Virus record (IMG/VR): IMGVR_UViG_3300043409_000077
Location: 1 to 33,886 of that record
Strand: one strand, 5' to 3'
DNA length: 33,886 bases
Source: a virus
Shown here one piece after another: positions 10,974 through 33,886 of this stretch. Each line of letters begins with the position of its first letter. The first letter of the stretch is position 1. Under the pieces are notes generated by a model that saw only the letters and a list, made by a program, of their open reading frames with translations, ran no database searches and had not been told where the DNA came from. Position numbers and translations under genes: made by a program.

Positions 10974-11140
10974 CGTTTGCACAGCTCCTTTACGGCTTTG
11001 GTCTTGCGGGGCTTTTTACAGACTTTGCTGACAGACTTGTATTTGGCTTTATACATCAAATCAGCCACGGTCGGCGGCTTTGGCGGTGTTAAGCAGACCG
11101 CCATTGCCACAAACAAAACAATCCAGCTAATCATTTTCAT
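10961..11140 (-). CDS. Small secreted or membrane-anchored basic protein
   Basis: The product has 59 residues from ATG 11140 (MKMISWIVLFVAMAVCLTPP). It has an N-terminal hydrophobic segment that could be a signal peptide or anchor, then a lysine-rich tail with two further cysteines (VSKVCKKPRK and KELCKRWEK). The MAVC sequence does not fit a lipobox well. The start lies 14 nt inside the upstream gene and has no clear ribosome binding site, so reinitiation is likely. The longer in-frame start at 11191 would add residues without signal character. Function is unknown. Confidence 0.6.
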   Translation of the reverse strand: MKMISWIVLFVAMAVCLTPPKPPTVADLMYKAKYKSVSKVCKKPRKTKAVKELCKRWEK

Positions 11141-11753
11141 TGATTGAATAAAACCAATCGTCCCCTGCTGTCCACTTGCGTGTCCCATCAACTGAGTAAA
11201 TGGTTTGCGCTGCTTGGAAATCAGGAAATTTGACCTGCTGGATCAGGCTTTGGTCATACCACAAACATCGATTGTTGGGCTGGGCGGCAAACTGACCATT
11301 GTCTAGGCGTATGAAATTAAAAGACTTGTGTTCCTCGGCGGTCTCAGTAAAGCCGGTGTCAAGGTCTTGCCCATCAGCACAAAAGTCCACGGTGAACATA
11401 TAAGTCCCAAAGTGCCACTGCTTGTCCTTGCCAAGAAACTTAACGCCCAGATTACGCAGGCCAATCTTTTCAACGATGGTAAACCTGTAACCCATGCAGT
11501 CCCACAATTGCAAAATGTCCACAGGCAGGTCACTAGCGCCCTCTTTCCACACATAAGCGTGAATGGGCAGCTTGTCGTATAAAGCACCGTATTCGGTCAG
11601 TAGCGACTCAATCCTAAACACTTGGCCTCTGATAGCTTTAAGACTGACCCACACGCAAGGCACAAGCTCGCCATGCCCTTTGGTGTGGTTGTATAGAAAC
11701 TCGGCCTTAATAAAGCACTGTAAGGGCGGCAATGATGCAACAAGGTAGCTCAT
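11127..11753 (-). CDS. Conserved-looking phage protein of unknown function (208 aa)
   Basis: The product is a mixed alpha/beta protein beginning MSYLVASLPPLQCFIKAEFL, rich in aromatic residues (LQLWDCMGYRF, KDKQWHFGTYMFTVDF, WTAGDDWFYSINEND). No transmembrane segment, metal cluster or known catalytic motif could be identified. It is translationally coupled with the upstream zinc-ribbon gene, overlapping its stop by 4 nt. I have an impression that similar proteins occur in freshwater phage early operons but cannot name a family. A DNA-metabolism or host-takeover role is possible from context only. Confidence 0.75.
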   Translation of the reverse strand: MSYLVASLPPLQCFIKAEFLYNHTKGHGELVPCVWVSLKAIRGQVFRIESLLTEYGALYDKLPIHAYVWKEGASDLPVDILQLWDCMGYRFTIVEKIGLRNLGVKFLGKDKQWHFGTYMFTVDFCADGQDLDTGFTETAEEHKSFNFIRLDNGQFAAQPNNRCLWYDQSLIQQVKFPDFQAAQTIYSVDGTRKWTAGDDWFYSINEND

Positions 11754-15129: not shown

Positions 15130-15151
15130 ATTGTTAAGCTAACTAAACAAT
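15130..15151. promoter_or_regulatory. Palindromic operator-like site O1
   Basis: This 22-bp element has perfect outer half-sites ATTGTT and AACAAT with a 10-bp spacer. It matches the site at 15184-15205 at 18 of 22 positions, and each is close to self-complementary. It lies just downstream of a candidate minus-strand -10 element, where a bound repressor would block initiation of the 15083-to-10878 operon. The obvious candidate ligand is the small HTH protein encoded at 15212. Confidence 0.6.
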
Positions 15152-15152
15152 A

Positions 15153-15160
15153 ATTGTATA
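15153..15160 (-). promoter_or_regulatory. Candidate -10 element of the minus-strand early promoter
   Basis: On the minus strand these bases read TATACAAT, a good -10 box. Transcription would start near 15147, inside operator O1, leaving a leader of about 60 nt before ATG 15083. No convincing -35 hexamer is visible at 16-18 bp, so the promoter may be weak or activated, or the assignment may be slightly off. Confidence 0.45.
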
Positions 15161-15183
15161 GGTGTTTTCCCTAATCTATTTAA

Positions 15184-15205
15184 ATTGTTAATCTAGCTTT
15201 ACAAT
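15184..15205. promoter_or_regulatory. Palindromic operator-like site O2
   Basis: This is the second copy of the 22-bp palindrome, with outer arms ATTGT and ACAAT. It shares 18 of 22 bases with O1, 54 bp away centre to centre. It includes the TACAAT that is the candidate -10 box for the downstream HTH gene, so binding here would autoregulate that gene. Spacing of about five helical turns would allow cooperative binding of two dimers on the same DNA face. Confidence 0.6.
15200..15205 (+). promoter_or_regulatory. Candidate -10 box for a leaderless HTH transcript
   Basis: TACAAT ends six bases before ATG 15212. A start point at the usual distance would fall on or within a base or two of the A of the ATG, and no ribosome binding site precedes that ATG. 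A leaderless mRNA, as for lambda cI from PRM, is therefore likely. The -35 region (near 15177-15182) is poor. Confidence 0.45.
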
Positions 15206-15211
15206 GCCCGC

Positions 15212-15367
15212 ATGACCAAACAGCAATTAACCCAGTTGGCAGGATCACAGAGTGAGCTTGCAAAATTACTTAACGTGAGCCGATCAGCGGTTTGCCAGTG
15301 GAAAGCTGTGCCAGAGCTGCGAATGCGGCAATTAAAAGATTTAAGACCCCAGTGGTTTACAACTTAA
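15212..15367 (+). CDS. Cro/YdaS-like helix-turn-helix repressor (51 aa)
   Basis: The product is 51 residues: MTKQQLTQLAGSQSELAKLL, then NVSRSAVCQWKAVPELRMRQ and LKDLRPQWFTT. This is a compact HTH domain: SQSELAKLLNVSRSAVCQWK is helix 2-turn-helix 3, and VPELR..QL..LRPQW is the typical tail of Cro-like (YdaS-type) phage repressors. It sits between two palindromic operators and a strong promoter, reads opposite to the early recombination operon and probably represses one or both divergent promoters. No larger CI-type repressor is found in the window, so this small protein may be the only dedicated switch. Confidence 0.85.
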   Translation: MTKQQLTQLAGSQSELAKLLNVSRSAVCQWKAVPELRMRQLKDLRPQWFTT

Positions 15368-15383
15368 CAGAACTATGTATAAT
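15356..15383 (+). promoter_or_regulatory. Strong sigma70-type promoter for the structured RNA / rightward early operon
   Basis: TTTACA at 15356-15361 (5 of 6 consensus) and a perfect TATAAT at 15378-15383 are separated by 16 bp. The -35 box overlaps the last codons of the HTH gene. Transcription should start near 15390, immediately before the first hairpin of the RNA region. This is the best promoter seen by eye in the window. Confidence 0.75.
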
Positions 15384-15389
15384 CCAAAC

Positions 15390-15570
15390 CGTCAGATGTG
15401 GCAATCTGATAGTAAGCCAAGAGCAGTTAACCCCATGGTTTTTTGGTGGGGCATGAAAGAAGTGTCTAGGGTGGGTAACCACGGCAGAGGAAACTCTGAA
15501 GACTCTTGGCGAACTAACACTTTGCCCATGCCAACGGGACTTGCCCCACCAAAACATCATGGGGTTTTTC
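15390..15570 (+). ncRNA. Unannotated structured RNA, about 180 nt, multi-branched, ending in a T-run
   Basis: Directly after a near-consensus promoter, several mutually compatible helices can be drawn. Hairpin A pairs 15392-15397 with 15404-15409 (TCAGAT/ATCTGA). A 24-nt arm at 15429-15452 pairs with 15543-15566 (22 of 24 Watson-Crick plus one G-U). Inside it, 15450-15455 can pair with 15527-15532 (GGCATG/CATGCC, sharing 3 nt with the outer stem), and 15460-15465 pairs with 15517-15522, extended by TAG/CTA. At the apex are two hairpins with GNRA tetraloops: GTGG-GTAA-CCAC (15471-15482) and CAGAG-GAAA-CTCTG (15485-15498). Each long arm can also fold alone (CCCCA/TGGGG at 15431-15451 and 15544-15564), the latter directly followed by five Ts as a terminator. 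No known RNA family was recognised. A phage regulatory RNA or a cis-acting antitermination element (compare HK022 put) is possible. Confidence 0.6.
15544..15569 (+). terminator. Possible intrinsic terminator or attenuator at the end of the structured RNA
   Basis: CCCCA (15544-15548) and TGGGG (15560-15564) form a 5-bp GC-rich stem with an 11-nt loop followed by TTTTT (15565-15569). The same left half can instead pair with 15429-15452 in the long stem. The two folds use the same bases, so the element could end a short RNA or act as a switch controlling read-through into the rightward operon. Confidence 0.5.
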
Positions 15571-15806
15571 CTTTTGGACAACGCAATGCGGTACGTCGAT
15601 GGTTGCGTTTGAGATACCCCGATACACGAGCAGGCCAGATCGGGGAGCGTGGGCTTAGTCCTAGAGCGCGGTGGTTGAAACAGTCTGGGACAGTGCGAGG
15701 CGATGACATGGCTCCGAAAGGCAAGCATCGAGGCACAGGCGAACTTTGGTTTTGACCACGGTAAGGCTGTGCTTTGCTCCAACAATCACCAAAAGGCAAT
15801 AAGGAA
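15571..15806 (+). other. 236-nt leader without a convincing gene; further hairpins
   Basis: Between the T-run and the next gene no frame with a ribosome binding site was found. Hairpin potential continues: AACGCAA/TTGCGTT (15580-15586 with 15603-15609), CCCCGAT/ATCGGGG (15617-15623 with 15639-15645), CGATG/CATCG (15701-15705 with 15726-15730) and CACGG/CTGTG (15757-15761 with 15767-15771). A plus-strand frame is open through the whole block (15375-15755), but its start has no ribosome binding site and it runs through the paired arms. The segment may be a long 5' leader, part of a larger RNA or the replication origin; I cannot tell which. Confidence 0.45.
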
Positions 15807-16025
15807 ATGACTGCAATCAACAAAGACATACCCATACAAGGGATTGCTTATTCTTATATTAACCACAGAGGTCAAGAAAGAATTTTGATGGCTACGTTCG
15901 CTAAATCAAAAACGCTTGCCAAGCAACGGTTAAGAGATTACAAACATTTTCATCCTGAATGGAAAGAACACAAACTTTACGAAATTTCAATAAATGTAAA
16001 AAATGAGATGGAGGTGGCTGCATGA
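15807..16025 (+). CDS. Small basic protein of unknown function
   Basis: The product has 72 residues from ATG 15807 (MTAINKDIPIQGIAYSYIN). The core MATFAKSKTLAKQRLRDYKH is strongly basic, and the whole reads as a small alpha/beta domain. AAGG occurs 10 nt upstream and again just before the ATG. The in-frame TTG at 15774 is rejected for lack of a ribosome binding site. It is the first gene of the rightward early operon, overlapping the following replication-type gene by 4 nt. A nucleic-acid-binding role is possible from charge alone. Confidence 0.7.
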   Translation: MTAINKDIPIQGIAYSYINHRGQERILMATFAKSKTLAKQRLRDYKHFHPEWKEHKLYEISINVKNEMEVAA

Positions 16026-16369
16026 CCAACTTTGAACAATTCTGGGCTGCATGGCCTGTCAGTACTCGCAAGGGCGGTAAGTCTGATTGCCTTAAGCGGT
16101 GGGAAAAGTATTATTGTGATAGCTGTTGCGACCAAATTATTAAGCACATCGAATGGATGAAAACCACCGACCAGTGGCGCAAAGATGGCGGTGCATATAT
16201 ACCCTCACCCGCTGTTTACCTAAATCAACGGCGTTGGGATGGCGCTGAGATACCTGAGATTAAAAAAACCATCAACATTTTGGACAAATTGGCAGAAGAC
16301 CGAGCCAGAGCTGTGCCGATGCCTGCTGATGTAAAAGCTAGGCTTGATGCGTTGCGGGGTCGTAGATGA
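16022..16369 (+). CDS. Replication-protein-like (phage O / replisome organiser C-terminal type)
   Basis: The product has 115 residues. It begins FEQFWAAWPVSTRKGGKSDC and contains AYIPSPAVYLNQRRWDGAEI, the FW..WP...KGGK and P.P..YLNQRRWDGA pattern of the C-terminal domain of phage replication initiation or helicase-loader proteins. The N-terminal DNA-binding domain usual in such proteins is missing, so it may be a stand-alone loader-interaction module. A GGAGG ribosome binding site lies 7 nt upstream. In the absence of any phage polymerase or helicase in the window, recruitment of the host replisome is the likely job. Confidence 0.72.
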   Translation: MTNFEQFWAAWPVSTRKGGKSDCLKRWEKYYCDSCCDQIIKHIEWMKTTDQWRKDGGAYIPSPAVYLNQRRWDGAEIPEIKKTINILDKLAEDRARAVPMPADVKARLDALRGRR

Positions 16370-33696: not shown

Positions 33697-33886
33697 CGGC
33701 GGCTTGGCAACGCAAGGAGGGCAAGAATCCCGAGGGCGGGTTAAATGCTAAGGGCAGAGCCTCAGCAAAGGCAGAGGGCATGGATTTAAAGCCGCCTGTC
33801 AAGTCAGGGGATAACCCACGCCGAGCATCATTCCTTGCGCGGATGGGCAATATGCCTGGTTCAATGGAAAAGAACGGCGAGCCGAC
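33693..33886 (+). CDS. DUF6321-like protein, 5' part; continues at base 1
   Basis: ATG 33693 overlaps the previous stop and begins MTAAWQRKEGKNPEGGLNAK. The frame runs to the window end and then continues seamlessly in the frame of 1-246 because 33735-33886 repeats 1-152. This copy carries the T at 33861, giving serine where the left copy has proline. Confidence 0.85.
   Translation, partial: MTAAWQRKEGKNPEGGLNAKGRASAKAEGMDLKPPVKSGDNPRRASFLARMGNMPGSMEKNGEP
33735..33886. repeat. Terminal direct overlap, right copy
   Basis: This is the right-hand copy of the 152-bp overlap; 151 of 152 bases equal bases 1-152. Confidence 0.93.

Follow-up and report, generated by a model that had tools for sequence, protein, structure and literature searches.

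A modular structured phage RNA with a covarying same-sense repeat and a possible role as a replication origin

The locus and its non-coding RNA

The stretch of DNA analysed here, hereafter the window, is the IMG/VR virus record IMGVR_UViG_3300043409_000077, positions 1 to 33,886. A phage RNA of ~420 nt lies on its plus strand at ~15390-15806, flanked on the same strand by a P22 Cro-like repressor gene upstream (15213-15368; Pfam PF14549, E 1.9e-9) and by a gene designated c1 downstream (16022-16369). Profile and fold matches identify the 115-aa c1 product as a C-terminal-only replisome-organiser or replication-initiation protein. In the main clade of relatives the RNA likewise stands between the Cro-like gene and c1. 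A promoter scan of 15150-15900 returned a single sigma70-like site, TTTACA (15356-15361) and TATAAT (15378-15383) separated by 16 bp, which bears out the strong promoter that had been proposed in an earlier, sequence-only reading of 15390-15570. One structured non-coding RNA of ~420 nt is predicted to be expressed from this promoter (15356-15383, plus strand).

Relatives of the element are widespread among IMG/VR viruses, in uncultured phages mostly from water samples. Sixty viral loci were found by a protein search with a 126-codon open reading frame (ORF) that covers the region. In the nucleotide alignment, the homologous DNA spans from the -10 box to ~15800-15806 and contains frame-breaking indels. 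The sequence-only reading had described an RNA of roughly 180 nt ending at a T-run; the conserved unit of ~420 nt continues into a 3' domain beyond that run, and the fold described earlier is the 5' half only.

The same search raised the question of a protein-coding gene. The 126-aa ORF is open across the element, 33/57 loci have an uninterrupted frame of 110 codons or more starting at the ATG of the -10 box, and tblastn gave many relatives. However, substitutions in the core are spread over codon positions 1, 2 and 3 as 286/307/330, and the length of 311 of the 332 core indels is not divisible by 3, so the ORF was ruled out as a gene. Moreover, the protein matches are split over frames, and the start codon of this spurious ORF sits inside the -10 box, a region conserved in most homologues that carry one of the 5' domain types A, B or C described below. 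A coding explanation is therefore scarcely credible, and the codon-level conservation that the earlier reading had named as evidence against an RNA is not seen.

The window and the scanned loci gave no gathering-score match to Rfam 15, which includes GOLLD, ROOL, OLE, HEARO, RNase P and tmRNA; relaxing the limit to E = 10 added nothing but a chance match. No description of this RNA was found in the open-licence literature searched. It is thus outside every Rfam 15 family, and together with the strong covariation reported below and the refuted coding gene this upholds the earlier proposal of a new structured RNA.

Modular 5' and 3' domains

Folding of 15390-15580 gave -80.5 kcal/mol (z = -5.8), a stability reached by none of 200 shuffles. 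The predicted fold includes a 5' hairpin, a long outer stem and two hairpins with GTAA and GAAA tetraloops. The 5' hairpin, CAGAT-GTGGCA-ATCTG (15393-15408), has a covarying stem, and its loop GTGGCA is invariant in types A and B. The outer stem, found by folding, joins 15429-15452 to 15543-15566. In type B it covaries through such forms as CCCCGCA/TGCGGGG, CCCCATA/TATGGGG, CCCCTCA/TGAGGGG and CCCTACA/TGTAGGG, and the type-B hairpin covaries too. The two GNRA hairpins, GGGTAACC and CAGAGGAAACTCTG (15473-15498), show compensatory stem changes: the GAAA hairpin stem CAGAG/CTCTG becomes CAGGG/CCCTG and CGAGG/CCTCG in homologues, and the tetraloops vary between GTAA and GCAA in one hairpin and among GAAA, GTAA and GCAA in the other, always as GNRA. 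The hairpins and stems of the sequence-only reading are therefore confirmed, and the covariation whose absence it had said would count against it is present. Its fold was nevertheless incomplete. It missed a pseudoknot between GCCAAGAG (15416-15423) and CTCTTGGC (15503-15510), and the segment it described makes up a single domain within a larger RNA. The type-B counterpart of this pseudoknot covaries, the mean match being 10.2 nt with the own partner versus 6.5 nt with swapped partners over 41 distinct strands.

At least three types of 5' domain can be distinguished, namely A (the window), B (the majority) and C. Types A and B share one layout, in which the hairpin with the GTGGCA loop is followed by the pseudoknot strand and then by the outer stem ending in the T-run. 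Type C, read by eye, has a promoter, a long stem, a T-run and an apparent covarying loop pairing. A U-rich linker, TTTTTCCTTTTGG (15565-15577), lies between the 5' and 3' domains and is a possible terminator. The linker (15570-15577 in the window; GCTTTTGG in type B) could also base-pair with CCAAGAG(C) in the 5' domain as a candidate alternative fold, and in the window, the only sequence so folded, RNAfold favours this pairing over the pseudoknot.

The 3' domain (15577-15806) was aligned across 57 diverse sequences. Its 37 pairs form 7 helices, one of them a pseudoknot; changes on both sides occur at 26/37 pairs, with 299 double-change cells in all. The covariation score was matched by 0/500 shuffles, and slid controls gave 37-82 double-change cells, a comparison in which the structure has an edge since it was drawn by eye on the same alignment. 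For the window's 3' domain by itself, the folding energy does not stand out from that of shuffled sequences (z = -0.5), so that the structure of this domain is revealed by comparison only. P1 pairs AACGCAAT with GTTGCGTT (15580-15609), with double changes in 7/8 pairs and 93% of cells paired. P2 pairs CCCCGAT with ATCGGGG (15617-15645; double changes in 5/7 pairs). P3 (GCG/CGC) carries a loop GTCC (15658-15661) that forms a pseudoknot with GGGA (15687-15690), the whole spanning 15647-15690; double changes were seen in 2/3 pairs of helix 3 and in 3/4 pairs of helix 4, which is weaker, with 75% of cells paired. Helix 5 is the word-1 hairpin CGATG-ACATGGCTCCG-AAAGGCAA-G-CATCG (15701-15730), with a variable stem and 70% of cells paired. 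P7 (GCACAG/CTGTGC) encloses P8 (TGGT/ACCA) at 15733-15772, and these are helices 6 and 7 of the covariation test.

The two domains are combined in a modular way. Among 116 distinct loci with a 5' domain of type A or B, the 3' domain is that of the window (type 1) in 82, type X in 22, type Y in 5 and type Z in 3, the rest being too short for classing. All 112 distinct A/B loci with enough downstream sequence show the T-run followed by a type 1, X, Y or Z domain. The type-1 covariance model did not match the X, Y or Z loci, which are exemplified by L309:4281-4640, L321:3005-3350, L345:750-1130 and L352:4982-5200; these three further domains have no Rfam match either. The type Z motif is abundant, with at least 120 matches in the viral scan.

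A covarying word in the same sense

The structure, the modularity, the non-coding nature and the paired words described next are established by sequence comparison. In type 1, an internal hairpin loop holds or adjoins a stretch of 6-9 nt, preceded by GGCTCC(G or ATA), that is identical to the 6-9 nt following TCACCA (or TCACCAC) at the 3' end. The word of the window, AAAGGCAA, stands at 15717-15724 after GGCTCCG (copy 1, W1) and again at 15792-15799 (copy 2, W3) directly after the conserved TCACCA (15786-15791); the stretch 15786-15799 is the 3' edge of the conserved element. Among 70 distinct pairs there are 53 words, and the copies match over at least 6 nt in 65/70 pairs; the corresponding figure after exchanging copies between loci is 9%. 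At a single column pair of the alignment, 17 different 6-mers are found, each of them repeated; the next distinct site has three. Past the second word of type-1 loci, we also observed AATACA within the first 35 nt in 17/95 loci versus 1/95 further downstream, and an A+T content of 61-65% versus ~55% in the first 30 nt.

Both copies have changed together several times within clusters whose cores are >95% identical outside the words, as in AAAGGCAA/AAGAGCAA/CAAAAG, AAGGGGAA/AAGAGGAA, AAAGCAC/AAGAGGAA and AAAGCAC/AGAACAC. The same rule is obeyed by the unrelated type Z domain, with 11 words in 79/100 sequences, and by other 3' domains. MW202426 repeats the 9-nt word AAGGAAACA as AAGGAAACA at a spacing of 74, after GGCTCCG and TCTCACCA respectively, and MW202545 repeats the 7-nt word GGGTATC at a spacing of 53. 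The type-Y sequences have one common word.

Compensatory change in RNA is mostly antisense. We know of no conserved repeat, covarying in the same sense, that has been used as an evolutionary mark of RNA-DNA recognition; the open-licence literature searched gave none either. As W1 and W3 have the same sense, pairing between the two is impossible, and the sole pairing partner left for W1 is the complement of W3, which lies in the DNA template strand. A complementary segment that tracks the word was not found in five regions of the RNA; competing helices formed through such a third segment were thus rejected as the origin of the repeat. The words are purine-rich (79% vs 57%), which would suit an RNA-DNA hybrid.

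The two copies might also be iterons, DNA sites of a protein with drifting specificity, beside an RNA structured for another purpose. Iterons typically occur as direct repeats close to replication genes, and a covarying pair could follow a changing protein. We nevertheless regard this as very unlikely: the words differ at several positions despite near-identical c1 and within nearly identical cores, the first copy always occupies the same structural setting of the RNA, and unrelated 3' domains show the same arrangement. For c1 in particular, a role as reader of the word was rejected, since near-identical c1 occurs alongside different words.

Position rather than repetition recommends a cis-acting leader for the downstream early genes, working by put-like antitermination, by attenuation at the T-run or by translation control at the second copy. 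The element follows Cro, where the early operon begins, the outer stem with its T-run resembles a terminator, and the second copy falls 0-50 nt ahead of the next gene's start codon. This explanation leaves the equality of two same-sense words unaccounted for. In addition, the downstream genes vary by locus and include terminase and portal genes, and the terminator scan found no ordinary terminator in 15150-15900; a leader of this kind is in our judgement quite unlikely. HK022 put is an early-operon phage RNA downstream of a promoter. It is a short RNA whose target in cis is RNA polymerase, whereas the present RNA has two large domains and a covarying repeat. The put-like antitermination suggested by the sequence-only reading fares poorly here, because this repeat lies outside 15390-15570 and is not predicted by a put model.

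RNA-guided DNA recognition is a further explanation, in which a ribonucleoprotein with a host or phage protein would be guided by the loop word to TCACCA, resembling a protospacer-adjacent motif, and the word DNA within its own locus, to serve in recombination, nicking or copy control. The same-sense covariation adjoining an invariant TCACCA and the occurrence of the element in several genome contexts speak for it. On the other hand, no nuclease, recombinase or reverse-transcriptase gene recurs beside the RNA, and the candidate enzymes are missing from the window: the IS110 DEDD recombinase (no such cluster recurs near the RNA either), TnpB (PF07282; IscB was not searched by its own model) and reverse transcriptase (PF00078; of retrons or diversity-generating retroelements). 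Other parts of the loci show no excess of the word, and its use as a multi-site target was rejected on that ground. RNA-guided recognition of this kind is therefore unlikely. The loops of the non-coding IS110 bridge RNA specify DNA sequences (PMC11208160, PMC11208158), a likeness to our RNA; unlike the bridge RNA with its separate target and donor loops, the phage RNA holds one word and a same-sense copy in the same molecule. It is without the tested features of bridge RNA, omega RNA and reverse-transcriptase-linked RNAs.

A possible replication origin and its phage context

We tentatively favour a reading, quite possible on comparative grounds, in which the RNA initiates an R-loop at its 3' terminus and thereby serves as the phage's replication origin, one encoded in RNA. 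W1 in its internal loop would pair with the template strand opposite W3, as the same-sense covariation and the lack of a complementary RNA partner suggest. During transcription, the folded loop would capture the template strand behind the polymerase and so seed the R-loop. The R-loop would open the DNA and supply a primer or an entry site, which would make the element a replication origin. The host primosome and helicase would join next; in the main clade the neighbouring C-terminal-only c1 would probably take part in this recruitment. DNA pairing by the loop would keep the two same-sense copies equal. In Escherichia coli, PriA-PriB-DnaT drives the start of replication from R-loops (PMC6160223).

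The closest concept is ColE1 RNAII, in which the origin is opened and primed by an R-loop that requires contact between an rG stretch of the RNA and a dC stretch of the template strand (PMC4412123, PMC5043065). Like RNAII, the phage RNA is a structured non-coding RNA with its own promoter, and by the word rule it has an internal stretch in the same sense as its 3' part, the pairing itself being a prediction. RNAII is a plasmid RNA of ~550 nt with an antisense RNAI and a G stretch; unlike it, the phage RNA is ~420 nt long and phage-borne, with modular domains, a freely changing word, a conserved TCACCA and different helices. The likeness is one of concept with no homology claimed, the sequences being compared via Rfam only. 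A minus-strand promoter for an RNAI-like antisense RNA was not found in 15150-15900, in a scan limited to sigma70-like promoters. Bacteriophage T4 also uses R-loop-mediated DNA synthesis (PMC4412123), and the likeness to its origins concerns the proposed mechanism only.

The c1 profile match is confined to the C-terminal part of phage replication initiators (residues ~175-250). Its fold matches are replisome organisers, weak past the top three, and a fold search against the PDB gave nothing. In all 59 RNA loci that have c1, its product measures 115-134 aa, while 11 relatives of 183-332 aa come from phages in which such an RNA was not seen, the absence being judged by gene order and failed searches rather than for each phage. 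A DnaB helicase and an IstB/DnaC-type loader were not found in the window; other loci adjoin a Toprim/DnaB-type gene or primase-like genes. More broadly, it is possible, though a little doubtful, that these elements form a phage RNA superfamily with several 5' types and several unrelated 3' domains, whose re-writable word identifies the phage's own DNA by RNA-DNA pairing, and that such origin recognition replaces the initiator's DNA-binding domain in the main clade.

Several observations weigh against an origin. Its transcript, hybrid and origin activity are proposals from comparison, and the correlation with a short c1 may come from a single clade. About a quarter to a third of the contexts adjoin terminase genes, not replication genes, and GC skew is uninformative as an origin mark. 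Type X shows no clear word rule. Two divergent core groups (L067/L086/L096 and L073/L090/L178) are without the GGCTCC loop, and no TCACCA-word end was found in the stretch read. With the second copy so close to the next gene, a role in that gene's expression is possible.

The element was also seen in further settings. The type-1 domain of L075, L094, L103, L107, L150, L161 and L167 lies between or beside terminase and portal genes, not in the early region. Among deposited phage genomes, MW202426 (L384, 6167-9215) has a Y-like 3' domain adjoining a primase-like gene, and MW202484 (L303:3512-3780) has a type-X 3' domain directly downstream of a short c1 homologue (a 384-bp coding sequence). MW202545 (L382, 3464-8551) has a type-C 5' domain downstream of a tRNA-like sequence cluster, in a region annotated as small hypothetical proteins. 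The isolate Stenotrophomonas phage SOVA965 (L520, record positions 37140-38063) has ~0.9 kb without annotated genes ahead of a tRNA cluster; this stretch gave a short match to a type-Z locus, and the word rule could not be confirmed there.

A genome-wide pattern scan of bacterial genomes gave no profile match among the matches listed. Among 399 genomes from the order to which a Polaromonas metagenome-assembled genome belongs, a covariance search gave one match, a false positive inside leuC, and the 5' B-domain pattern was absent from 301 genomes of the family of that assembled genome. No core was found in isolate phages with related portal genes, and type Z sequence did not match plasmids. The L060 query also matched 23 nt in Aeromonas phages; this match was rejected, as it spans a terminator-like end only. 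Elsewhere in the window, the ends (1-152 and 33735-33886) share 152 bp at 151/152 identity, which probably makes the record a complete genome of ~33.7 kb, either circular or circularly permuted. A 208-aa protein encoded at 11130-11753 on the minus strand strongly matches PHROG 3704, labelled ferredoxin and host takeover.

GOLLD and ROOL RNAs have phage links, and to our knowledge no description of either contains the word rule. The present RNA resembles them as a large ornate metagenomic RNA (PMC12286853), and differs in being shorter and in having no Rfam match. The RNA family is well supported; its mechanism we infer. Whether or not that mechanism holds, Rfam lacks a widespread RNA family whose domains are interchangeable, and deposited phage records partly annotate it as small ORFs. 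If the mechanism is right, many uncultured phages would initiate replication via a programmable RNA rather than a protein-bound origin, and the origin question in these phages would be directly testable through 7-nt word swaps.
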